Assembly: GCA_032164295.1 (NCBI GenBank) | Contig: JAJHTX010000005.1 | Location: 868,001 to 932,000, forward strand | Source: Inonotus obliquus | Taxonomy: Eukaryota > Basidiomycota > Agaricomycetes > Hymenochaetales > Hymenochaetaceae | Direction of reading: 5' to 3' | Length of the DNA stretch: 64,000 nt | Shown here: positions 1,896-64,000 of the stretch, piece by piece | Layout of the letters: each line of letters opens with the position of its first letter | How positions within the stretch are numbered: position 1 is the first letter of the stretch | Translations under genes and position numbers: made by a program | The notes under the pieces: model-generated | Databases searched by the model: none | What the model saw: the letters and a program-made list of their open reading frames with translations, nothing else | What the model was told of the DNA's origin: nothing

Positions 1896-2884
1896 GTTGT
1901 GTAGAGGATGAAAAACCTTAAAAAAAATTCCGGGTCCTAGCCGACATGCACCGTGGCAGAACGATTACTTCATCTGTCTTGAGACCCAAGACCATGGCCA
2001 TAAACGATAATAGAGAGATGAGCAAAACCTGACAAACTGTCCTGTCCCGTTGAATGTGCGAGAACGCGGCCGGTATCAGAAGTACCGGACGAGGGGGGTA
2101 CGATTTAGATGCGTTGGGAGGGCCGGTACGTGGCGGTACTAAGTCGTACAGTCACAGACAAGTCGTCAAGAGAGAATAGTAGGGCCTGGCTGGATTGATG
2201 AGTACAGGAGGCTATAGGTGACCGCTCAAGAGGAGAGGTATCAGGAGGCGATCAATACCGAGACGAGTCCGTCAATACCGAGTCGTCTGGTGTCCGGTAT
2301 CACGGTAGAGAGAACGAAGCAGTAGAGAAGGCGAGCTGAGGAGGTGTTTCTGATGGGACTGGTCATGAGACGATAGACAAGGGCGACGAAGACGAGAACG
2401 ATGACTACCGGTGTCAGGCCAGGATATTGCCTGGACATAAACAATCGTAATATTGGCACGCTTTACACTATCGGAAGCAAGAACATAGTAGGACATCAGA
2501 AAGGATAAACAAGAAATATCGGACGTCGCAGTAACTCGTAATTCTGCACACAAGTTAGCAAATCGAAAGCCGATGGAAAGTGCCAAGCTTACTATCAAGC
2601 GTTGAGCACAACTCGTCTAGTAACAAGCACCGGTACCCACTCGACCCACTCCTCCTCGATCATGATAGTCGTCTCCACAAATACTCTTCGTGCTATTAAG
2701 CATAAAGATCGCAAAGTGTCGAGAAAGTAACTCACTGAATCGGGTTAGAGGAAGCGCGACGATACACAAAAGTCAGCCTGAGAAGTTCAGAAGCGTGGCA
2801 GAGCAGATGGTGAAGTCGTGCACGAAGTCGTGAAGGTGGCATTAGAACAAAGAATTGCAGAAAAGGAACTCGAGCGGCGATAGA

Positions 2885-3335
2885 TGTTACGCCTTGCACA
2901 GTCAGAGACGTCGATCAGAGGATCAGAGACGTCGACGAGCAAGAAGACGAGCTACCACTTAATCACAAGAGACCGGAGTCTGCGACGTAGGTGATAGTAC
3001 TAGATTTTAGCACGTCTATATAATACACGAGGGGGATACGACTTACCTGCGACGTAGGTGATAGTACTAGAACAAGAGAGTGAAGAGACGATCACTCTCT
3101 AGTCCAGCCTTATATACCCAGACGCCGCGGGAAAGCTTTACATAAACTGTACAGTATAAACAAAGACAAATAGAAACAAGGGAAGAAAGGGGAATGGCGG
3201 GATAAAGTTGTTATAGATTGTGATTAGCTAAGCCAGTAGGGATTAAGTAAGGAACGTGATTTAAAATGAAAGTAAATATGCGTCGACGAATAGAAAGAAT
3301 GGCCGTATGAGGAAAAGAGAAAAGACGTCGTAACA
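2885..3335 (-). repeat. 3' LTR of the chromovirus
   Basis: This is the 451-bp LTR downstream of pol on the minus strand. By eye it matches the other LTR (8922-9372) base for base, with the same TGTTACG start and CGTAACA end. The predicted RNA start equivalent lies at 3081. The pol stop codon abuts its inner edge. Confidence 0.95.
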
Positions 3336-6300
3336 TCACCCCCCTCTTAAGGTTGGGCGACCCGACCAACCATGGGTTCGATCCGGCTCCGTGTAACGAA
3401 AAATCGGTTTAAACGTCGAAAGACCTAGACGTGCGGCGAAGACTCGAGGGGCTCCTGGGTGTAGCTTATAGAAGTCATCGATAGCCTCGTTAGAATTTGG
3501 AACGAGGTTATCGCGGGGTTCCCAGGTAGTTTCATCGTAACCTTTCCAACGGACGAGGAATTGTAACTTTCCTCTATGTTCGCGTGAGTCTAGAATTTCT
3601 TCGACTTCGTATTCTTCTTCGCCGTCGATAAGTTCTGGTGGAGGTGGGGGTGGCTTCTTCTGTCCTTCAAACGATGGGTCGACGTACGGTTTAAGAAGTA
3701 CCTCGTTGAAGACGGAGTGTACCTTCTTCCACGTCTTTGGCAGCTTGAGTTTGTACGCTGCTGCGCCGACTTTCTCCATGACGTCGAAAGGACCGTACCA
3801 TTTATCCGCAAACTTCCGAGTTGGTCTGACCGTCGTAATGTTTCGTCCGTCTAACATAACCTTGTCTTCAACCTGATATTCAACGACATCGGCCGCCTGT
3901 CGATCGTGTGCTTTTTTCATAGCGTTGTTTGCCTTTTCAAGGTTCTCTTTTGCTTGAGAATGTGCCTCCTTGAGTTCTTTGGCAAACTCTTCCATTGACA
4001 GGTTTTTTGACGTTGTTTGAATCGTTCCTGGATTAAGGGGGTTAAGGCCCGTATTGACGAAGAAAGGAGACATTTTTGTCGACGAATGTTCCCGGTTGTT
4101 GTAGGCGAACTCCGCAAGCGCCAGCCATTCCGACCAATCCGACTGTCGATGATTGACGTACATCCTCAAGTACAGTTCGAGTTCTTGATTAACTCGCTCT
4201 GTTTGTCCGTCAGTTTGAGGATGATAGGCCGTCGATGGATTTCCTTCGATATGAAGGAGCTTGTAAAGCTCTTTCATGAAGTCGGCGTCGAATTGGGGAC
4301 CTCGATCATGGACGATCTTTTTGGGGAGTCCGTGTAACCTGAAGACGTGGTCCCTGTAGAGTCTTGCCGTTCCTTGAGCCGTTATCTTCGTCGTCGTCGG
4401 AATCGCATGTATTTGCTTTGAAAACTTGTCGACGATGACGCAGATCGCGTTGTAACCATTTGACTCAGGAAGTTCACCGATGAAATCGACCGATATCATT
4501 TGCCATGGGCCTTCAGGGATGTCGTGCGGATGTAAGGTACGTCGTTTCGGTTGTCTAGACGGTTTAGTTCTTTGGCAAACGTCGCAGCCCTTGACATATT
4601 TGACAACGTCTTGGATTAATCCAGGCCACCAGTATTTCTGACCGATGGATTTCCAAGTCTTGGTCTGACCTGGGTGTCCTGCTAACGGCGAGTCGTGGTA
4701 TTCCTTTAAGACGTCTTCGATCAATTCGATCGGTACGACAAGTCGGCCATCCATCCTGGGCTCCAGTCCTTCACCGGCATCCTTGATCCGTTGTTCCAAC
4801 ATTGTCCGCGTCGTTTCTACGACAGCCCTAGCCTTAAACCATTCGTCCTTCAACAGCATCAGCCCCTGGTTGTCCTCCTTCCCTTCGTCGTAGTCATACC
4901 GACGGGAGAGAGCGTCTGCCTTTGTCATGGTTGTACCCGGTTTGTGAACGAACATAAGATCGAATTCCGACAAAAACAAGGACCAACGAGCTTGTCGACG
5001 GTTTAGATCTTGCGGCTTCCTAAAGTACGTCAGGTTCGCATGATCTGTCCAAAGTTCGACGGGGTGTTTGGCGCCTAGGAGGTACTGCCTCCATTCCGTC
5101 AATGCTTGGACGACTGCAAGAAGCTCTTTGTCGTAGATCTGGTAATTTCGTTCGGCTGGCGACAACGTTTGGGACCTGTAGGCGATTACCCTCCACACGC
5201 TCTCCTGCTTCTGGAGTAAGACACCTCCAGTCGCAAAGTCCGATGCGTCGGTTTCTACTCGGAACGGGTCGTCGTCGTTTGGGATCGCTAGGACGGGAGC
5301 GCTGGTCAACCTTTGTTTGATTTCCTCAAAGGCTGCCTGTTCCTGTGGAGTCCATTCCCATGCGACGTCTCCAGTTAGACGAGTAAGCGGCTTGATGACA
5401 GCACTGTAACCTTTGACGAATCGTCGAAGCCAATTGCCGAGCCCAAGAAACTGTTGTAGCTGTTTCTTGTTCTTTGGAACGGGCCATTCGGCGACTGCGT
5501 CGATCTTTGTAGGATCCATGCGTACCTCACCATTACCGAGGATGTATCCGAGGAACTTCACCGTTGACACTTCGAACTCGCACTTCGTCGATTTCAGATA
5601 CAGCTTATGCTCCCTCAGCACGCTGAGTACCTGTTTGACTAGTCGTCGGTGTTCTTCGACATTTTCCGAGAAGATGAGGATATCGTCGAGGTAAATGACT
5701 ATCTTTCCTTGTCCGATCAGGTCTCTGAAGATGTGATTGACGAACGTCTGGAAGGTGGCCGGCGCGTTGCACAGGCCAAAGAACATGACGGTGGGTTCGA
5801 AAAGTCCCTCGTTCGTTCTAAAGGCCGCCTTCCATTCGTCACCTTCTCTGATGCGGATATTATAGTATCCCCATCTGACGTCGAGTTTCGAAATAACCTT
5901 AGCCGTTTTGACCTTATCAACAAGTTCACCAATGAGTGGTAGAGGATATTTGTTTTTAATCGTTCCTTCGTTGAGCTTCCTGTAATCTTGGATAGCTCTT
6001 AACGAACCATCGGCTTTCTTGATGAAGAAGAAAGGGGATGACATGGGAGACGATGATTCACGTATACGTCCTGACTTGAGATTTTCGTCGATGAAAGCCC
6101 GTAGTTCTTCGCGTTCCTTCACACTCAAGGGGTAGACCTTACAATCGGACGGTTTAAAGTCCGGTTTCAGGTCGATGACGTGGTCCCACACTCTATGCTC
6201 TGGTAGCCGCTCAAAGTTTTCTTCGCTGAAAACGTCGTAGTACTCCCTTAAATACGGTAACTCCGACGATGGTCTTCGCTGAGGGATGATGTAACGGGCC

Positions 6301-6980
6301 TTAGGAACATCGTGCTGTTTGCAAGACGTCGGGCATTTGTCGAAGTTGATGTGTCCACACCTCCAATCAATCGACGGGTTGTGTTTGCTCAACCACGAAT
6401 AACCCAGGAATAGATTCGACGTCGAGATCGTAAGAACGGGTAGGCGTACCCTTTCCTCATGATTCTCAATTCGGAGGTTTAGCTCGACGTATTGCGTCAT
6501 CTTGCCTCCTTCATTTGGTGTTCCATCAGCATTCATGACGTTCGTCGCAGTCGGGAGTTTCAGCGTCGGGATTTGGTATCTTTCAACAAAACCTGCATCG
6601 ATATACGAGTCTGTACAACCCGAGTCTATCAACGCATGAGCATCTAATACTCTTCCATCATCCAGGATTATGTCGACGTAAAGATCCAGCTCGTCTCGAG
6701 CTTTTGCCGGGGTTTCCTTATTTATCTTTCGGACGACCGGGCCTTTGACGAGTTCGTCGAGGAGAAGCTCAAAGTCATCATTGTCGGATTCATTTTCTTC
6801 AAACGGTTCGCTTTCGATCTGATTTTTTAATTCGCCAATTTTATTTGCAGACGTCGCATCTAATAATTGTACATTTGACGAATTATAATTTACAGGGGAT
6901 CGAAGTGAAGAGTTTGAGAAACCTAAGCCAGTGACACCGACGTCATCTACTGGCTGATCGAAAAATCCTCGTCGTCGGGA
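3336..6980 (-). CDS. pol: Chromovirus pol polyprotein (PR-RT-RH-IN-chromodomain)
   Basis: The frame opens at 6980 and runs about 1214 codons to a TGA touching the LTR. It overlaps the end of gag by 34 nt in the -1 frame, so expression probably needs a -1 ribosomal frameshift; a U run (GAUUUUUC in gag codons near 6962-6967) is a candidate site. Domains in order: protease with IDSGCTDSYI (near 6630); reverse transcriptase with the polymerase core YLDD (near 5685-5700); RNase H (DASDFATGG, then YDKELLAVV); integrase with an HHCC zinc domain (HPGQ...CDVCQR), VDFIGEL and DRGPQF for the catalytic aspartates and a downstream glutamate; a GPY/F-like WYGPF segment; and a C-terminal chromodomain (YEVEEIL...FLVRWKGY..TTWEP). 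All key residues are present. Ordinary starts such as the Met at 6632 would lose protease context, so it is not independently initiated. Confidence 0.93.
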   Translation of the reverse strand, partial: SRRRGFFDQPVDDVGVTGLGFSNSSLRSPVNYNSSNVQLLDATSANKIGELKNQIESEPFEENESDNDDFELLLDELVKGPVVRKINKETPAKARDELDLYVDIILDDGRVLDAHALIDSGCTDSYIDAGFVERYQIPTLKLPTATNVMNADGTPNEGGKMTQYVELNLRIENHEERVRLPVLTISTSNLFLGYSWLSKHNPSIDWRCGHINFDKCPTSCKQHDVPKARYIIPQRRPSSELPYLREYYDVFSEENFERLPEHRVWDHVIDLKPDFKPSDCKVYPLSVKEREELRAFIDENLKSGRIRESSSPMSSPFFFIKKADGSLRAIQDYRKLNEGTIKNKYPLPLIGELVDKVKTAKVISKLDVRWGYYNIRIREGDEWKAAFRTNEGLFEPTVMFFGLCNAPATFQTFVNHIFRDLIGQGKIVIYLDDILIFSENVEEHRRLVKQVLSVLREHKLYLKSTKCEFEVSTVKFLGYILGNGEVRMDPTKIDAVAEWPVPKNKKQLQQFLGLGNWLRRFVKGYSAVIKPLTRLTGDVAWEWTPQEQAAFEEIKQRLTSAPVLAIPNDDDPFRVETDASDFATGGVLLQKQESVWRVIAYRSQTLSPAERNYQIYDKELLAVVQALTEWRQYLLGAKHPVELWTDHANLTYFRKPQDLNRRQARWSLFLSEFDLMFVHKPGTTMTKADALSRRYDYDEGKEDNQGLMLLKDEWFKARAVVETTRTMLEQRIKDAGEGLEPRMDGRLVVPIELIEDVLKEYHDSPLAGHPGQTKTWKSIGQKYWWPGLIQDVVKYVKGCDVCQRTKPSRQPKRRTLHPHDIPEGPWQMISVDFIGELPESNGYNAICVIVDKFSKQIHAIPTTTKITAQGTARLYRDHVFRLHGLPKKIVHDRGPQFDADFMKELYKLLHIEGNPSTAYHPQTDGQTERVNQELELYLRMYVNHRQSDWSEWLALAEFAYNNREHSSTKMSPFFVNTGLNPLNPGTIQTTSKNLSMEEFAKELKEAHSQAKENLEKANNAMKKAHDRQAADVVEYQVEDKVMLDGRNITTVRPTRKFADKWYGPFDVMEKVGAAAYKLKLPKTWKKVHSVFNEVLLKPYVDPSFEGQKKPPPPPPELIDGEEEYEVEEILDSREHRGKLQFLVRWKGYDETTWEPRDNLVPNSNEAIDDFYKLHPGAPRVFAARLGLSTFKPIFRYTEPDRTHGWSGRPTLRGG
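3339..3348 (-). other. Polypurine tract overlapping the last pol codons
   Basis: On the minus strand a 10-base all-purine run (AAGAGGGGGG) is followed directly by the pol stop TGA and then the LTR start TGTTACG. It is the expected plus-strand primer site. It encodes the final residues of pol, so coding and priming are superimposed. Confidence 0.85.
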
Positions 6981-8194
6981 TTACTTTCATCGACAACTTC
7001 TTCTTCTTGCAATCGACGAGCAGCTGCTGCCCTTGCCGCTTCCACGTCAGCGTCCGCGAACAAAACCTCACGAAGCAGTTCCTTCGCCTGCTCGGATAAT
7101 TCGGCGACGACCGCACGAACTTGTTGTTTGGTCGTCGGTGTCGGACAATTTGCGGAGATGTGGCCTTGTTTGCCACACTGGAAACACCTTCCTTCGCGAC
7201 GAAGCCGTCGAAGGATGTCCTGCATCGGTTCGCCTTGGCCCCCGAAGGTAATTCCCGTCGCATCCTTTTTGTCGCCGCGCGAAGGATCGAACAGGGCCGG
7301 CTGTTGTGGTGCTGGCGGGTGGACTTGTCGACGCGGTAGTGGTTGCGTCGGTGTCTTCTGGTTACGCAGTTGACGAACTTCGCGCTCGTTCGCGTCAAAC
7401 ACGATGGCGTACCCTTTCATCATGTCATAATTCGTCGGCTTCGTCGGGAGACGAATGATCGCCGTCGCTACCTCCTCACGAAGAGCCTTCTTCAGCTGCG
7501 GAAGCACGACATTGACGTCCGTCGTTTTGACTCCTGCTTGACTCATTGCAATCTCGAAATTGGCGAGGAAGACACCGGCGTCGGCGTTTCCTTGGCGCAT
7601 CTCCGTCCACCGAGTGTACGCTCGGTCCTTCTCGCCAGGGTCCTTAAAGGACTGGTCGATCTTTTCAAGGAACTTCTTAAAGGTGTCGACAATCGTTATC
7701 GCACCCTGGTCATTCGTTATTCCGTCGTAGTAGTTTTGAGCCCACGTCGATGCTGTGCCTTCCTTCATGTACGACAGCACGAAGGAGATCTTCTTCTTGT
7801 CGTTGACGAAGATCGAGCCAGTATCGTCGGCGCTAATGTACGCCAAACATTCTCGACGGAATCGGAGGTAGTCTTTGCCTCCAGCGAAAGGCGTCGGCGG
7901 TGCGATCCCAAGATCTTTCATCGTCGACTGTTTAGGCGCTTGTCTCTGTTGAGCAGACATCGCCGCCGCGACTAGAGCGGCGAAGTCCTGGATTTGTTCG
8001 GCGGTGAGGGATGACATCGTCGTTCGAGGGTTCGACGAAGTTCGTGTCAGTCCAAAGGCAGTCGACGTCGAAGGTAGAGACGGCGACGAGAGAGTGGGAG
8101 ATCGAGGCGGTGGTGTGGGGGCAGCTGTCGGTGGTGACGGATTTCTCGGCTTCCACCTGAAAGTCTTTGTGTGTTCGTCGTTATCCCACGACAC
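6947..8194 (-). CDS. gag: Chromovirus Gag with CCHC zinc knuckle
   Basis: This 415-residue capsid/nucleocapsid protein is the structural protein of the retrotransposon particle. A Pro/Ser-rich N-terminus (residues 15-60) is followed by a helical capsid-type domain (about 65-280, including a W..NYYDGI segment) and one zinc knuckle near residue 340 (CFQCGKQGHISANC, C-X2-C-X4-H-X4-C). The C-terminus is Ala/Glu-rich and ends in acidic residues. The Met at 8194 is followed by a long uninterrupted frame; a second Met within the Pro-rich part is possible. The last 34 nt overlap pol. Confidence 0.9.
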   Translation of the reverse strand: MSWDNDEHTKTFRWKPRNPSPPTAAPTPPPRSPTLSSPSLPSTSTAFGLTRTSSNPRTTMSSLTAEQIQDFAALVAAAMSAQQRQAPKQSTMKDLGIAPPTPFAGGKDYLRFRRECLAYISADDTGSIFVNDKKKISFVLSYMKEGTASTWAQNYYDGITNDQGAITIVDTFKKFLEKIDQSFKDPGEKDRAYTRWTEMRQGNADAGVFLANFEIAMSQAGVKTTDVNVVLPQLKKALREEVATAIIRLPTKPTNYDMMKGYAIVFDANEREVRQLRNQKTPTQPLPRRQVHPPAPQQPALFDPSRGDKKDATGITFGGQGEPMQDILRRLRREGRCFQCGKQGHISANCPTPTTKQQVRAVVAELSEQAKELLREVLFADADVEAARAAAARRLQEEEVVDESNPDDEDFSISQ

Positions 8195-8921
8195 CCAAGA
8201 CTTGCTAGTCGGCGACCACCAGGATTCGAACTTATTGCCTAGTTTGTCGGTGACTGTAACGTTGTCCTGCTCGTCGACGACGGAGTTGGAGGGGAGCGCC
8301 GCTAACTGCTCTTGTGTTAAAGGCAGTTTGTCAATGTCGGCGGGTTAGAGGCGTCCACAACTCGTAGATGCGGACGGTCGGTACCCAGGTAATGAGCGCG
8401 CGATGGAAGTGACCGACGACCTCAAAATAGGCTCCGACTTCGAAAGGAACAAGATGATCGTTATCGTCGAGGTAATAACCGACGATCGCGTAGGTGGGGT
8501 AACACTCGAGAAACCCGATATACTCACGGAGGGAACGTGGTACACCGGACATGTAACGTCGATCGACTCGACGCTCAGATAGCACGTGAACTCTCACGTC
8601 GTCTCAGGGGGTTCAGCAACACTTCGACAAACAACTTTCCAACGAAACGTATCCGCAAGACACTACTGGGCTTTCTTGTCGCAAGCGACAACCGACGGTA
8701 GCGTTGTCAGAGAGAGGTGTCTAAGTCAAACGTCGAGCAAGGACGTGGGACGACACTTCACCAACAATAGGTATACGATCGTCTCAGGAGTCTGACAACT
8801 ATCCACTGACCAACGTCGACAACGAGAGAAACAGAGGTGGAACGGAGGATGTCAGAGACACGTACGAGTTTGTTGTTTTAACGTCGACAACAACGACACG
8901 AGTTAAGAGACTCTCTTGTTA
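8195..8921 (-). other. Untranslated leader between 5' LTR and gag
   Basis: About 730 bases lie between the LTR and the chosen gag start. Short open frames here (for example 8331-8597) have no recognisable domain and no good coding bias. The stretch begins with the primer site (8910-8920) and probably carries packaging signals. Confidence 0.6.
8910..8920 (-). other. Self-primer binding site (11 nt)
   Basis: One base after the 5' LTR the minus strand reads AACAAGAGAGT. This is the exact reverse complement of ACTCTCTTGTT (9118 down to 9108) inside the same LTR, about 30 bases downstream of a TATA box. Pairing stops at both edges, giving exactly 11 bp. It does not look like the usual TGG-starting match to a tRNA 3' end. 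Known family parallel: Tf1 primes reverse transcription from the 5' end of its own RNA with an 11-nt pairing. Confidence 0.8.
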
Positions 8922-9016
8922 TGTTACGCCTTGCACAGTCAGAGACGTCGATCAGAGGATCAGAGACGTCGACGAGCAAGAAGACGAGCTACCACTTAAT
9001 CACAAGAGACCGGAGT

Positions 9017-9083
9017 CTGCGACGTAGGTGATAGTACTAGATTTTAGCACGTCTATATAATACACGAGGGGGATACGACTTAC
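9017..9083 (-). other. Intron-like cassette inside the LTR, bounded by direct repeats
   Basis: On the minus strand GCAG|GTAAGT (edge at 9083) and CGCAG|ACTCC (edge at 9017) delimit 67 nt with a CTAAAA branch-like word. A 25-bp direct repeat sits at 9017-9041 and 9084-9108, so removal would delete exactly one repeat period. The diverged LTR at 63799-63866 keeps the same architecture with donor GTATGT and acceptor TTGCAG. Splicing itself is inferred. Confidence 0.5.
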
Positions 9084-9146
9084 CTGCGACGTAGGTGATA
9101 GTACTAGAACAAGAGAGTGAAGAGACGATCACTCTCTAGTCCAGCC

Positions 9147-9153
9147 TTATATA
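9147..9153 (-). promoter_or_regulatory. LTR TATA box
   Basis: TATATAA on the minus strand, about 30 bases upstream of the predicted RNA start at 9118. The same box at the same spacing occurs in the diverged LTR near 63929-63935, which supports it as the real promoter. The 3' LTR carries the same motif at the matching position. Confidence 0.75.
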
Positions 9154-9544
9154 CCCAGACGCCGCGGGAAAGCTTTACATAAACTGTACAGTATAAACAA
9201 AGACAAATAGAAACAAGGGAAGAAAGGGGAATGGCGGGATAAAGTTGTTATAGATTGTGATTAGCTAAGCCAGTAGGGATTAAGTAAGGAACGTGATTTA
9301 AAATGAAAGTAAATATGCGTCGACGAATAGAAAGAATGGCCGTATGAGGAAAAGAGAAAAGACGTCGTAACAATAGATAAACAAACCATTCTTTATATGG
9401 TCACGATCTAGAAGCAGAAATGAAGGTTCAAGAACCACCGGTTGCACCATTCATTTGGTCTTATCTGAGAAGCCATCCGATACATCGCTCTGGAAAAACC
9501 AAAGACCACAGTCCAGATACCAAAAACCAAATAAGCCCAAACTG

Positions 9545-9712
9545 GGTAATCGGTTATATCATCCATCAGGTCATCGATTATATCATCCATCAAGTAATCG
9601 ATTATATCATTCATTAGGTCATCGATTATCTCATCTATCAAGTAATCGATTATATCATCCATCAGGTCATTCATCAAGTCATCGATTAGATCATCGATCA
9701 GGTCATCACCTT
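9545..9712. repeat. Tandem repeat, 24-bp unit with 12-bp half units
   Basis: About six degenerate copies of a 24-base unit built on ATCGATTATATCATCCATCA, alternating AAGTA and AGGTC joints, with one 12-base half copy. It is AT-rich and lies inside element X. It creates an artificial repetitive open frame on both strands (DDLMDDIID-type translation) that is not a gene. Confidence 0.85.
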
Positions 9713-9734
9713 GAACCATATTCTGGACTCATCA

Positions 9735-9925
9735 ATTGATTCATTGATGGCACATCATTCATCAAGTAACTCATTGATGCACATCATTCATCAAATAACT
9801 CATTGATGCACAGCATCTATCAAGTAATTCATTGATGCACAGCATTCATCAAATCATGCATTGATGCACATCACTCATCAATTAATTCATTGATGCACAT
9901 CATTCATCAAATAACTCATTGATAC
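9735..9925. repeat. Tandem repeat, 29-bp unit
   Basis: Roughly six head-to-tail copies of a 29-base unit beginning ATTGATGCACATCATTCATC, with scattered substitutions, directly after the 24-bp array inside element X. The two arrays share the word ATCATTCATCAA, so one may derive from the other. There are no spacers of variable sequence. Confidence 0.85.
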
Positions 9926-11199
9926 ATTGATACATATCACTTGATTTGGAGTATTTGATGCATAGCTTTGGAAGGAGATATCAAATTTTGATGATGTGGT
10001 TGATGCAGATCTATTTTTAGCTTATGCTGTGGATTATGTAAATTGGTCTTGGAATTAGTATTTAAGGACCAGCATGTAGCCCCCCAGAGGAGCATATAGA
10101 ATTAACTCCTCATAGAATAACTCACCAGAGTTCTCCCCCAGAACAAGACAAGCTCACATCACTCTGTGACCTCTTGTCACACCATTTGCAAGTCAAGTCA
10201 AGGTTTCGTCGCATACAGTTGACCACAGCTTAAGACTGGGTAACTGCATTGCTCAAGGACTAGTTTGGTACTAGTCAAAGGTATTGTATCACCTCTGTTC
10301 CAATTGGACATTGGTGATAAACTCCCTCTCAAAGTCGATATCTAATAACTCGAGACTTCGAGTGTGTGTGTCCCTCTAGACATTGACATCTATTCTGCAT
10401 AGCTTGTCATTGCCTACCTCGGTGTGGACAATTTAATTGCTCCTCACCCACGGTGACCTATCACTCACTTTCAAGAGAATTGGATAAAGACTCATCTCTC
10501 ACTCACTCTACATCTCTACTTGAACTCGAATCTCTCAACCCTCCGACTACAACAAGTTGCCCATAGCTTCAACGAACAACTGGGAAGACTACCTGCCTAG
10601 ATAATTAGACCGGTTAACTCAGTGGGAGTGTACTTGGTTATTCAACAGCCAATACCATCCCAGCACGACACCGGTATCGATACCGGTGACTACGAGACGA
10701 GACGAACGAACGGGGACTTGAACGAGATGAGCAAAACCCGGACCTTCACTCTGGAAGTTCCTCTCAGATTAACTGGTTTGCTACAGTAGAACATGCAGGC
10801 TATAAATACCATAATACCGTAGCCATTCAAGATACCAAATGGAGGGTTTTTACAAGTCGAATCGTACCGTAATCCGGTACAAGAAATGGAACATAAAGTC
10901 GAATTGAATGTAAAATTACAATCAGGGGAAACATAAGATGATGAATGAATAAGAAGTTTTATCAGGGGGTAGCTAAGAATAGGGTGGGACGAGACAAGAA
11001 CCCAATGAAAACTCACGACGAGTGATACCGAGGTAGGGCGGCGATACCGACGTCGACCAGCGCTAAATTAAGGACGTGTCTCAAGCTACCGCATGGGCAC
11101 TCCTGGCGATGTCCCTGTTGTAGGAGAAGCACGTCATCCTGATTTACCTTTGTTCCAGTATCATGATCCGTGCGGCGTCAGTCTGGGCGTCTACCGGTA

Positions 11200-12475
11200 A
11201 ATTTTCGAGATCGCGGCCGGTACCGGAGGTACTGGTCGAGGGGTGTATGGTATAAGAATACGGGGAGGGCCAAATGAGGCAGTACTTATCCAGTACGCTC
11301 ACGGTACTTGTTGTCTGTAGAAGGGGGATGTAAAGAGAGCCAAAGGAATGGTAGAAAGGGGTGCTGGATCAGCTAGATGTTGGGGGGAATGTGTTCTTGT
11401 CTGGAATCGAGAGGGTCGGTACCGTGGGAAAAACGTCGGTACAGGTCGGTACTTGAACGAACAGGATCGGTATGTGCAGAAATGTTGTAGAACAAAAGCT
11501 CAGTACAGAAACGAAAGGTGGATGTGCAAAATACGAAGAATAACAAAATGTTGGTACCGTGGGAAAAACGTCGGTACAGGTCGGTATTGCAAGGAAACAG
11601 CTAGCACGGGGTGGTATAGCGAGAAACAGAATGAGGGAGACTGGTGGATGAAGGTGTCGACTGGACTGGGAAGCAAACCTGAGCCCTCGCACGGGAGGCT
11701 AACTCCTGAGGTGAACTTGAGACGAAACTGGGACAGAACTTGAGACGAAGCTGAGATGAGACTGAGAAGGGGGTGAGGAAAACCTGAGCCCTCACGCTAG
11801 AGGCTAGCTCCTAAGATTACCTGGAGAGCTACTACGTACAGGAGGAGATATTTATACTACTGTACCGTAGTTAGCTCATAAATCCAAAAGGAGAAAGTAG
11901 AAAGGAAGATCAAAACAAAGAAAAGTCTGAAGAAAAATGTAACAAGGAAAGTGAACATTGCAGCGCCATCAGGGGGACAACAAGAAAGGGTTAGGGATGA
12001 CAAGATACCAATGAAAACGTAGCATATAGTACCCCTGGATGAAAAGTCCTCAGGACAAGAGATTTGAGCCCCTGCCAATTGATACCGACACATTTCTGGT
12101 GGTACCGGACCTGAAAACCTTAACAGATACTGCCCTGAGCTTCCCCAAAGAACCGGCATGCATAGTCCAACCATCAGGAATGAATACCAGAGAGGAAGAC
12201 GTCTGATCCATGTCATGAGAGCATGTCGAATTGCCAAATTGTCTCGGTACCGGGTTTCTCGGCACTCGGTACTCTCGGTATTCTCGGTACCGGGTTTCTT
12301 GGCGCTCGGTACCGGTACTCTCGGTGTTCGGTACTTCGAGAAATGGGACCAGCAGTTTCTCTGGGTGTGCTGGTGGATACTGGAAGGTGTAGACGGGACA
12401 GTACCGTAGCATGGGATAAGTGTAGAATGGGATACCGGGCTCGATACCGAGCTCAGCCGCACGTAGTTCTCTTCA
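11200..12475 (-). repeat. 3' LTR of element L1
   Basis: This 1276-bp LTR is uninterrupted and serves as the template for reconstructing the split right LTR. It is dense in GGTACC/GGTATC words. The open frames within it (for example 11348-11743) also occur in the other LTR and are not genes. A short purine stretch (GGGAGA) precedes it on the minus strand as a weak polypurine tract. Confidence 0.85.
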
Positions 12476-15611: not shown

Positions 15612-18600
15612 TAAATTTTCGAGATCGCGGCCGGTACCGGAGGTACTGGTCGAGGGGTGTATGGTATAAGAATACGGGGAGGGCCAAATGAGGCAGTACT
15701 TATCCAGTACGCTCACGGTACTTGTTGTCTGTAGAAGGGGGATGTAAAGAGAGCCAAAGGAATGGTAGAAAGGGGTGCTGGATCAGCTAGATGTCGGGGG
15801 GAATGTGTTCTTGTCTGGAATCGAGAGGGTCGGTACCGTGGGAAAAACGTCGGTACAGGTCGGTACTTGAACGAACGGGATCGGTATGTGCAGAAATGTT
15901 GTAGAACAAAAGCTCAGTACAGAAACGAAAGGTGGATGTGCAAAATACGAAGAATAACAAAATGTTGGTACCGTGGGAAAAACGTCGGTACAGGTCGGTA
16001 TTGCAAGGAAACAGCTAGCACGGGGTGGTATAGCGAGAAACAGAATGAGGGAGACTGGTGGATGAAGGTGTCGACTGGACTGGGAAGCAAACCTGAGCCC
16101 TCGCACGGGAGGCTAACTCCTGAGGTGAACTTGAGACGAAACTGGGACAGAACTTGAGACGAAGCTGAGATGAGACTGAGAAGGGGGTGAGGAAAACCTG
16201 AGCCCTCACGCTAGAGGCTAGCTCCTAAGATTACCTGGAGAGCTACTACGTACAGGAGGAGATATTTATACTACTGTACCGTAGTTAGCTCATAAATCCA
16301 AAAGGAGAAAGTAGAAAGGAAGATCAAAACAAAGAAAAGTCTGAAGAAAAATGTAACAAGGAAAGTGAACATTGCAGCGCCATCAGGGGGACAACAAGAA
16401 AGGGTTAGGGATGACAAGATACCAATGAAAACGTAGCATATAGTACCCCTGGATGAAAAGTCCTCAGGACAAGAGATTTGAGCCCCTGCCAATTGATACC
16501 GACACATTTCTGGTGGTACCGGACCTGAAAACCTTAACAGATACTGCCCTGAGCTTCCCCAAAGAACCGGCATGCATAGTCCAACCATCAGGAATGAATA
16601 CCAGAGAGGAAGACGTCTGATCCATGTCATGAGAGCATGTCGAATTGCCAAATTGTCTCGGTACCGGGTTTCTCGGTGAATGTGCGAGAACGCGGCCGGT
16701 ATTAGAAATACCGGATGAGGGGGGTACGATTTAGATGCGTTGGGAGGGCCGGTACGTGGCGGTACTAAGTCGTACAGTCACAGACAAGTCGTCAAGAGAG
16801 AATAGTAGGGCCTGGCTGGATTGATGAGTACAGGAGACTATAGGTGACCGCTCAAGAGGAGAGGTATCAGGAGACGATCAATACCGAGACGAATCCGTCG
16901 ATACCGAGTCGTCTGGTGTCCGGTATTACGGTAGAGAGAACGAAGCAGTAGAGGAAGCGAGCTGAGGAGGTGTTTTTGATAGGACTGGTCGTGAGACGAG
17001 AGACGAGGGCGACGAAGACGAGAACGACGACTACCGGTATCGATACCGGTGACTACGAGACGAGACGAACGAACGGGGACTTGAACGGGATGAGCAAAAC
17101 CCGGACCTTCACTCTGGAAGTTCCTCTCAGATTAGCTGGTTTGCTACAGTAGAACATGCAGGCTATAAATACCATAATACCGTAGCCATTCAAGATACCA
17201 AATGGGGGGTTTTTTACAAGTCGAATCGTACCGTAATCCGGTACAAGAAATGGAACATAAGGTCGAATTGAATGTAAAATTACAATCAGGGGAAACATAA
17301 GATGATGAATGAATAAGAAGTTTTATCAGGGGGTAGCTAAGAATAGGGTGGGACGAGACAAGAACCCAATGAAAACTCACGACGAGTGATACCGAGGTAG
17401 GGCGGCGATACCGACGTCGACCAGCGCTAAATTAAGGACGTGTCTCAAGCTACCGCATGGGCGCTCCTGGCGATGTCCCTGTCGTAGGAGAAGCACGTCA
17501 TCCTGATTTACCTTTGTTCCGGTATCATGATCCGTGCGGCGTCAGTCTGGGCGTCTACCGATCGATCGGACGGCGTGCTCCGATGTTGACGTGTCGGTAC
17601 AACCCAACCTTGGCAATGGGGTACTCTACCGTTCGGTACCAATCAGTACCCTGGGATCGTCCCTGAGCATCGCTCTAGCCCCTCGATATCGACCGGTACG
17701 CGTCGCCTGACTCGACTGGGCATTGCTTGGCTTCCCCTCCGAGTCGGATCGATGGCCTCCTCCGAGATCGAAGCAGCATACGGTGGACTTGATTCATTTC
17801 CCAACCTTCCTCTCGACGTAGATCTCCGATGGCGTGGTCTCGACCTAGCACACGTAACGAACTCCGGTACCGGAGCGGACCATCGGTATCAACACCGGTA
17901 TCGTCGGTATCGATGCATGGCGGTTCGGAAGGGCATACCGTCGGGCTTGGAACCTCGACCATGATCCAACTCTTCGCAGCAACGTATGGCAGACCGAGTG
18001 CAGCTTTGTGAGTCTTTTTCTATGGTATGGGCTGTCGAGGGCGTAGTATCGACTAGGTGTGGAGTATTACGCGTCGGTATCAGGACGGGTGGACGGTACG
18101 GTATCGGTATCATCGGTATCGAAGTCTGGTGGTTCGGTACTATGATGGAAGACGGGCGTAGGGATTGGTGATTCGGTATTGGCGCAGAAGTGGACCAGTT
18201 CTCAATCGCTCTCAGCCTTGTCGAATCGCAGAAGCCTCGTACTTTGTTGGAACCGCAGGCGTAGATAGGACGGCAGAAGTACCGTGGTCCGAAGAGAAGT
18301 AAGAAGCGGTAGAATCGCAGAAGTATTGTTAATTGGAAGAAGCGGTAGAATCGCAGAATTAAGCCCATATCGATCGTAGCCTCCGGTATTACTCTTTATC
18401 GGCACTCGGTACTCTCGGTATTCTCGGTACCGGGTTTCTTGGCACTCGGTACCGGTACTCTCGGTGTTCGGTACTTCGAGAAATGGGACCAGCAGTTTCT
18501 CTGGGTGTGCTGGTGGATACTGGAAGGTGTAGACGGGACAGTACCGTAGCATGGGATAAGTGTAGAATGGGATACCGGGCTCGATACCGAGCTCAGCCGC

Positions 18601-28614: not shown

Positions 28615-29940
28615 ATGCCTATTATACTTCGAGATGTCCTACGAATACCACGTCTCGCACATTTATCAAGAGTTTCAACACCTTTGCATCGTAACTCGTC
28701 GACCGCATCTGCTACACTCACCTCGTACTTTTGGCGGAATGACCATTGGTCCCCGATTTCTCAAAGGCGAATACGATTACAACGAAGAGATGTTGCCGCC
28801 CAGGCTACCGCGGTAGCAGCGGTTGCACCCGCTCCCATCCCTTCGCCGTCTGACATGGTCCTCGACGGACTCGAGCTTCAAGGGACTTCGTATCCGCCCT
28901 CACGTTCCAATGTACCTTACAAACCCATACCATCGCTAACCCTCCCTCGCCTTCTCAAAATATACTCCGAACTCTCAAAATCTCGCCTATCAGTACTCAT
29001 AGTCCTAACAGCCATGTCCTCCGTTGCGCTCTCTCCACTACCTACAACCGTTCCTGTTCTGCTTTCCACGGCTCTCGGGACAGCGCTATGCAGCGCTTCA
29101 GCCAACGCGTTCAACCAGCTTCAAGAGGTGCCGTTTGATGCGCAGATGGCGAGAACGAGGAATCGTCCTCTTGTTCGACACGCAATTTCAACCGTGCATG
29201 CGATGGGTTTCGGTATCGTTACAGGCATCGCGGGTCCAGCGCTTCTATGGGCATGCGTGAATCCTGCAACAGCGATGCTAGGAGCGGCGAACATTGCGCT
29301 TTACGCGGGTGCTTACACGTATCTAAAGCGACGAAGCATTGCGAATACGTGGGTTGGTGCTGTTGTAGGCGGGATACCACCTTTGATGGGTTGGACAGCT
29401 TGTGGAGGGCACCTTCTACCTTCAGCAGACTATCCTATTCAGCTATTCCTACCCCTCACATCAATGCCGCTCCCACCCGCGCTTGCGGATAACCCGCTCG
29501 CGCCGTTAGCGCTGTTCATGTTCCTCTACAGTTGGCAATTTCCTCACTTCAACTCTCTCGCTTATTTCGTTCGTGAGTCGTACGCAAAAGCTGGGTATCG
29601 CATGCTCAGTGTCATATCTCCCCCACGAAACGCCGCCGTCTCTCTTCGACACGCTATATTTATGATACCGCTTTGCAGTGTGCTGTTCCCACTAAGCGGG
29701 CTTGTAGGATGGGGTTTTGCGCTGACTAGCTTGGTACCAAACATTATTTGCCTCCGACATGCGTATAACTTTTGGCGTGTTGGAGGGAATAGCGAGAAGG
29801 CTGCACGTAAGTTGTTTTATACGTGTTTGTGGTACCTTCCTGTGGTTATGGGTCTTATGATGGTGCATAAGAACGGACTCGATTGGACAGGCTGGTTGAG
29901 GAAAGAAGAGGCGAACGAGGAGAAACGGGAGACTGAATGA
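28615..29940 (+). CDS. COX10: Protoheme IX farnesyltransferase (heme O synthase)
   Basis: Adds a farnesyl group to protoheme in the mitochondrial inner membrane, giving heme O, the precursor of heme A for cytochrome c oxidase. It is a single 441-codon exon. The first 60-70 residues are Arg/Ser-rich with few acidic residues, typical of a mitochondrial presequence. The prenyltransferase core has the polyprenyl-diphosphate motif NAFNQLQEVPFDAQMARTRN near residue 163 and the second motif YTYLKRRS...WVGAVVGGIPP near 232. Several hydrophobic helices follow, including LALFMFLYSWQFPHFNSLAY and the C-terminal ones. Length fits fungal Cox10. It ends 45 bp before the stop of the convergent ZNF830-like gene, so the 3' UTRs probably overlap. 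Confidence 0.95.
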   Translation: MPIILRDVLRIPRLAHLSRVSTPLHRNSSTASATLTSYFWRNDHWSPISQRRIRLQRRDVAAQATAVAAVAPAPIPSPSDMVLDGLELQGTSYPPSRSNVPYKPIPSLTLPRLLKIYSELSKSRLSVLIVLTAMSSVALSPLPTTVPVLLSTALGTALCSASANAFNQLQEVPFDAQMARTRNRPLVRHAISTVHAMGFGIVTGIAGPALLWACVNPATAMLGAANIALYAGAYTYLKRRSIANTWVGAVVGGIPPLMGWTACGGHLLPSADYPIQLFLPLTSMPLPPALADNPLAPLALFMFLYSWQFPHFNSLAYFVRESYAKAGYRMLSVISPPRNAAVSLRHAIFMIPLCSVLFPLSGLVGWGFALTSLVPNIICLRHAYNFWRVGGNSEKAARKLFYTCLWYLPVVMGLMMVHKNGLDWTGWLRKEEANEEKRETE

Positions 29941-63722: not shown

Positions 63723-64000
63723 TGTTACGCCTTGTGCTGTTAAAGACGTCGATGGTTATAAGAAGGCGAGCTACCACTTAATTACAAAAGACCATAGTCT
63801 GCAACAAAGATAATAGTACCAGAATAAATTAACAATCTACATAATATATAGTGAGAGGGGACATACCTGCGACAAAGGTGATAGTACCGGAACAAGAGAG
63901 TGAAGAGCAATCTCTTGTTGTCCCAGCCTTATATACACTTCGATGTTAGGACGGACAAGGTGGCAGTGCATGCTCGAGGCCTGTTCTCACGAAGATCATC
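63723..64000 (-). repeat. Diverged LTR of the chromovirus family, cut by the window edge
   Basis: It begins TGTTACGCCTTG like the LTRs at 2885 and 8922 and keeps the same order: GAGCTACCACTTAAT, the two direct repeats (63799 and 63867), the intron-like edges (donor GTATGT, acceptor TTGCAG on the minus strand), AACAAGAGAGT at 63891-63901 and the TATATAA box at 63929-63935. The rest has many substitutions and gaps, so this is an older or separate subfamily. Whether it is a solo LTR or the start of a full element is not visible. Confidence 0.85.

Follow-up and report, generated by a model that had tools for sequence, protein, structure and literature searches.

The window, a stretch of 64,000 nt from Inonotus obliquus, has an LTR retrotransposon on its minus strand, and the question raised by this locus is how the element primes its reverse transcription. 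Features of the element, which is termed family A, are listed in Table 1. The pol ORF displays the Pfam domains that define a chromovirus, in the order RVP_2, RVT_1, RNase H, H2C2, rve, SH3_Tf2-1 and Chromo. The best solved-structure matches are 4ol8 and the Ty3 polyprotein 7q5b, and two of the 120 homologues among the matches listed are named 'retrotransposable element tf2'. The two LTRs are identical, which suggests a recent insertion. The gag and pol frames overlap by approximately 34 nt (positions 6947–6980); pol is in the -1 frame, and the overlap, a possible frameshift site, includes five consecutive T residues. Near the 5' end of the element, positions 9521–9952 contain short tandem repeats spaced at 12/24 and 29 nt.

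Table 1. Positions of the family A element and related features in the window
Feature	Position	Strand	Remark
LTR retrotransposon (family A element)	2885–9372	-	Ty3/gypsy chromovirus
5' LTR, 451 bp, TGTTACG...CGTAACA	8922–9372	-	identical to 2885–3335
3' LTR, 451 bp	2885–3335	-	no difference from 5' LTR
Target-site duplication ATAGA, 5' side of the element	9373–9377		
Target-site duplication ATAGA, 3' side of the element	2880–2884		
Spacer base T (element strand) between LTR and primer site	8921	-	T also in families C and D
Primer binding site AACAAGAGAGT	8910–8920	-	sequence read
Self-primer ACTCTCTTGTT, predicted RNA nt 1–11	9108–9118	-	exact complement of 8910–8920
Predicted RNase H cut TT^CT	between 9108 and 9107	-	after self-primer ACTCTCTTGTT
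TATATAA promoter element	9147–9153	-	sequence read
U3 stretch directly upstream of predicted RNA start	9119–9145	-	pairing of 9129–9145 hypothetical
gag ORF (Ty3-type capsid, CCHC knuckle)	6947–8194	-	ORF list and domain match
pol ORF (protease, RT, RNase H, integrase, SH3_Tf2-1, chromodomain)	3336–6632	-	ORF list and domain match
Polypurine tract GAGGGGGGTGA	3336–3346	-	adjoins 3' LTR; contains the TGA stop codon of pol
Diverged related LTR remnant, same 11-mer, TATA spacing 34	63723–63943	-	family C LTR end begins at 63944

Comparison of sequences indicates that this Ty3/gypsy chromovirus very probably starts reverse transcription with its own RNA. In the proposed mechanism the 5' LTR would drive a transcript that starts at about position 9118, and the first 11 nt of this RNA (ACTCTCTTGTT in DNA letters) would loop back to pair with RNA nt 199–209, the primer site. 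By analogy with Tf1, the RNase H of the element would then cut after nt 11 at TT^CT, and the freed 11-mer, kept on the primer site, may be extended into minus-strand strong-stop DNA.

Across the inner edge of the 5' LTR the minus strand reads CGTAACA-T-AACAAGAGAGT-CTC. The first-pass annotation had claimed an exact complementarity of 11 nt between the primer site and a segment of the LTR, and this is confirmed: AACAAGAGAGT (8910–8920) and ACTCTCTTGTT (9118–9108) match at 11 of 11 positions. The pairing also ends sharply on both sides, as had been claimed, with RNA nt 12 (C) opposite the spacer T and the base that precedes nt 1 (C) opposite C. The TATA box that was placed approximately 30 bases before the 11-mer is found there, with the first T of TATATAA 35 nt and the last A 29 nt before 9118. 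The diverged LTR at 63723 was said to preserve both features, and it does have the exact 11-mer and a TATA spacing of 34 nt at an overall identity of 78% over 181 columns. There is no primer site adjoining this LTR, and it therefore tests the RNA side only. Its U3 side is cut by a family C LTR end (positions 63944–63997, 93% over 54 nt); because this end abuts the U3 side, the 63723 LTR is interrupted or recombined.

The genome to which the window belongs, 36.07 Mb in 30 contigs, was searched for further copies. The family A LTR gave 42 matches, of which two short fragments were left out; the remaining 40 are long (at least 277 bases), represent the two LTRs of the window and 38 others, and are 91–100% identical to the query. 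The 11-mer is 35 nt from TATATAA in 40/40 of these LTRs, and LTR-T-AACAAGAGAGT is present in 23/23 copies that have an internal flank (the window copy and 22 others). Since the copies are closely related, conservation of the 11-mer is by itself weak evidence. Genome-wide, the word CGTAACA-T-AACAAGAGAGT is found 33 times exactly, ten times with 1–2 mismatches and eight times with 3 mismatches, and the 11-mer is intact in nine of the ten words with 1–2 mismatches; matches to the reversed control numbered 6 and 4 at up to 3 mismatches. Somewhat stronger evidence than that of the close copies comes from two copies with an RT that is 83–84% identical (C8:1596508 and C11:1841297), where the 11-mer is intact approximately 2.5 kb upstream. 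A third diverged copy, C6:2874522, has the 11-mer with one change, and a diverged A-like copy, C6:2878686, carries AACAAGAAAGT at the primer site, as read on the primer-site side only.

The window has other repeats as well. A direct repeat pair at 11198–12262 and 15612–16676 is 1065 bp in length with 99.8% identity, and the two repeats flank an 830-aa minus-strand ORF with no Pfam match. The segment 11198–16676 has the appearance of a second recent element bounded by repeats, and the first bases inside either edge of its repeat pair contain no self-complement of 8 nt or longer. Around it are further repeats with 95–98% identity (10665–11196/17027–17560, 17557–18404/18615–19463 and 2045–2412/16671–17038), and this nest probably represents nested or rearranged insertions. 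A heme farnesyltransferase ORF at 28615–29940 shares 81% identity with its counterpart in Sanghuangporus baumii and 76% with the one in Fomitiporia mediterranea, which points to a hymenochaetoid bracket fungus as the host.

Probable primer pairs in families C and D

Two other families in the same genome, with RT sequences that are approximately 66% (family C) and 64% (family D) identical to that of family A, provide a comparison of the primer and its site. In family D, GTCTCACTATT is located 34 nt after the start of TATATAA. At locus L080 of this family, a T adjoins the LTR and precedes AATAGTGAGAC, which is exactly complementary to GTCTCACTATT. The family D word, CATAACA before T-AATAGTGAGAC, has 27 exact occurrences and four with 1–2 mismatches, and the controls gave 0 and 1.

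For family C a single 3' LTR was read, and the primer site was then predicted from the position and the rule. This LTR yields ACTCGACTCTT and hence a predicted 19-letter word, CCTAACA-T-AAGAGTCGAGT. The predicted word occurs genome-wide 25 times exactly and seven times with 1–2 mismatches, with 0 and 1 in the reversed control. Thirteen of the 32 words are at the inner edge of LTR matches when the best 40 near-full-length candidates are considered, and one of these 13 is the 5' end of the same element whose 3' LTR was read. Six of the seven near words differ within the 11-mer, four of them with AAGAGTCAAGT and two with AAGAGTTGAGT; these six variants are known from the primer-site side alone. 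The AAGAGTTGAGT variant could still pair by G-U.

The complementarity is exact in all three families, with 11/11 in each of A, C and D. The 11-mers differ at four positions between A and C, at eight between A and D and at six between C and D, and every one of these differences is compensated in the primer site. The place is fixed as well: each primer site is one T inside its LTR, the TATA spacing is 34–35 nt, and the TT^CT context after the 11-mer is common to the three families. The LTR sequence that surrounds the 11-mer is common to families C and D, so that their 11-mers look changed in place and not separately originated. This comparison of three families supports the reading of family A as a self-primed element that the first-pass annotation had proposed from one locus. 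The point at which the RNA begins, its cleavage and its use as a primer are inferred.

Additional chromovirus-like sequences were observed. Two groups of long ORFs, G000:C6:89434 and G000:C1:72846, are 1808 and 1521 aa in length, and in neither group could an LTR be recognised within the 901 bp downstream. The 901-bp stretch downstream of the G000:C1:72846 group has the TATATAAAG motif. At G000:C5:41223–48583 two family-D-like elements are apparently in tandem with one LTR in common, after which a primer site is present.

Alternative explanations

Self-priming could be real while the transcript starts elsewhere, in which case the 11-mer would be internal to the RNA and would need a further processing step to become a primer. 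In favour of this, the start is placed by the TATA spacing only. Against it, the spacing is the same 34–35 nt in three families, a pyrimidine-purine step is present at the boundary (CA, CG, or TG in the family D copy L080), and the pairing ends exactly at the predicted RNA start. A different start thus has only a slight probability.

The complementarity might also represent a chance or low-complexity GA/CT match, or a neutral inverted duplication carried along as the family multiplied. Among 20,000 dinucleotide-shuffled LTRs, 68 matched the sequence immediately inside the LTR over 11 nt or more, and because the sequence is GA/CT-rich the 11-mer in one element is only moderately surprising. The family A copies, with their 91–100% identity, say little on this point. 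The fixed place near the TATA box further lowers the chance of a match. Families C and D argue directly against chance in that they have different 11-mers at the same place with every difference compensated, and the family C site was predicted beforehand and then found 25 times exactly. Nor would a neutral duplication remain complementary while both arms change. The weight for self-priming is carried by the TATA-box position and the other families, not by the single 11-mer, and with these a fortuitous or neutral origin is very improbable.

The primer could instead be a tRNA of the host or a fragment from inside one, and the match to the LTR would then be incidental. Half-tRNA primers occur in some copia elements. 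The tRNA set in which a primer was sought is incomplete, with 63 of the 1410 candidates scored, 30 loci taken and 25 distinct tRNA predictions read. Within this incomplete set of 25, the longest exact complementary run to the family A primer region is 6 nt, in keeping with the earlier statement that a tRNA primer is not evident. The same 25 tRNAs show somewhat longer internal runs for the other families, 8 nt in one tRNA for family D and 7 nt in two tRNAs for family C. The tRNA-end pattern, a T-loop word with CTCTTGTT after it, is at control level, with 6 matches against 5 in the control. A leading TGG at a primer site would pair with the CCA end of a tRNA, and the family A primer site is without this TGG. 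The three families have three different sites, each of which matches a segment of its own LTR. As judged from the 25 tRNAs and the three families, priming by a tRNA is very unlikely.

RNA folding and the U3 region

Folding of the 5' end of the RNA had been suggested as a check on the self-priming reading. The predicted fold does pair nt 1–11 with the primer site, with per-pair probabilities of 0.73–1.0 in family A and 0.64–1.0 in family D, but it does not amount to independent support. When the interior was shuffled, the mean helix probability was 0.91 vs 0.96 observed, and 34% of 100 interior shuffles of family A reach the observed value. Fold strength was therefore rejected as evidence for self-priming, the helix being nearly as strong with the interior shuffled. 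The flanking duplexes of the Tf1 'pretzel' are not above shuffles in family A or D, where the central helix is predicted; the test covered nearly the whole of R-U5 and is weak for short helices.

A separate consideration concerns the second copy of the self-primer. As R is present at both RNA ends, the 3' copy could occupy the primer site to no use. U3 is present only at the RNA 3' end, so a fold of U3 could hide the second primer copy and leave the 5' copy free. Models suggest, tentatively, that U3 folds over the 3' self-primer copy in families A and D and would act as an element-encoded mask by which only the 5'-terminal copy primes; we regard this as possible but rather unlikely. In the models, a hairpin across the predicted start can form between positions 9129–9145 and the 3' self-primer copy with the sequence on either side of it. 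Five LTR sequences were scanned for dinucleotide z-scores, and the second of these scans also covered flank upstream of the LTR. The start window of family A has the strongest z-score in its LTR, -4.1, and the ranks of the start window are 1, 2, 3, 7 and 7 for family A, the A subfamily with CCCC before the start, the 63723 LTR, family C and family D, respectively.

The opening energy of the family A 11-mer is 13.5 kcal/mol with U3 and 1.3 without it. Shuffled U3 sequences have a mean of 3.9, and 0/200 are as high as observed. The A subfamily with CCCC has a value of 14.5 (0/200 shuffles as high), and two copies of family D have values of 9.1 (1/200) and 8.4 (0/200). There is no clear effect in the 63723 LTR, with a value of 6.2 that 7.5% of shuffles reach, and no effect in family C, with 3.7 and 43.5% of shuffles as high. 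Because the six LTR sequences are from three families and are not all independent, and family C is a clear exception, the U3 mask is offered as a hypothesis only. The same fold is explained just as simply by a palindrome in the promoter DNA. No mask on a 3' primer copy is described in the available portions of the open-licence literature searched (e.g. PMC3601003), and a mask in families A and D, not in C, is possibly new. If real, it would explain how self-primed elements escape misuse of the second primer copy.

Relation to known self-priming elements

The mechanism of self-priming is already known from Tf1/sushi elements, and the family A elements add to this known class. According to PMC10085805 and PMC6317226, as far as their available parts show, Tf1/sushi elements commonly self-prime, whether they come from fungi, vertebrates or non-seed plants. 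In Tf1 the first 11 bases pair with the primer site and RNase H cuts between bases 11 and 12, according to the portion of PMC7175516 consulted, which agrees with the use of Tf1 in the first-pass annotation as the established case of an 11-nt self-primer. The Tf1 structure has extra duplexes, the 'pretzel' (PMC10085805, in part).

Family A resembles Tf1/Tf2 of Schizosaccharomyces pombe in the 11-nt complement between the predicted RNA start and the primer site, and in a chromodomain integrase and a Ty3/gypsy pol with SH3_Tf2-1. It differs in its basidiomycete host, in a primer sequence of its own and in gag and pol that are in different frames with a short overlap. In addition, the three-duplex 'pretzel' of Tf1 was not recovered here by a simple test. 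For Tj1 of S. japonicus and Tosmo/Tcry of other fission yeasts, a primer site complementary to the mRNA 5' end has been proposed on the basis of sequence, as given in the sections seen of PMC4600332 and PMC10085805. These are ascomycete elements, with transposition data for Tj1, whereas the three families described here are from a basidiomycete and are known by their sequences.

Among basidiomycete chromoviruses, self-priming has been proposed for Tcn1 of Cryptococcus neoformans (PMC7175516, in part), and Tcn1-like moss elements have been proposed or predicted to be self-priming chromoviruses (portions of PMC7175516 and PMC6317226). Tcn1 and the moss elements are likened to family A by the proposed self-priming, not by a sequence relationship. 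According to the available part of PMC2864245, SM-Tcn1 of Selaginella yielded no tRNA site and no self-primer. In the literature on Hymenochaetales, Sanghuangporus and Fomitiporia, the terms 'self-priming' and 'primer binding site' are absent among the open-licence matches listed.

With their natural compensatory changes, the three co-varying pairs from one genome add to the comparative evidence that a lineage of basidiomycete elements self-primes. They suggest a simple rule, in which the LTR end is followed by a T and the 11-mer, and a TATA box is located 34–35 nt before the partner of the 11-mer. This rule could predict RNA starts and primer sites in chromoviruses that are seemingly without a tRNA site.
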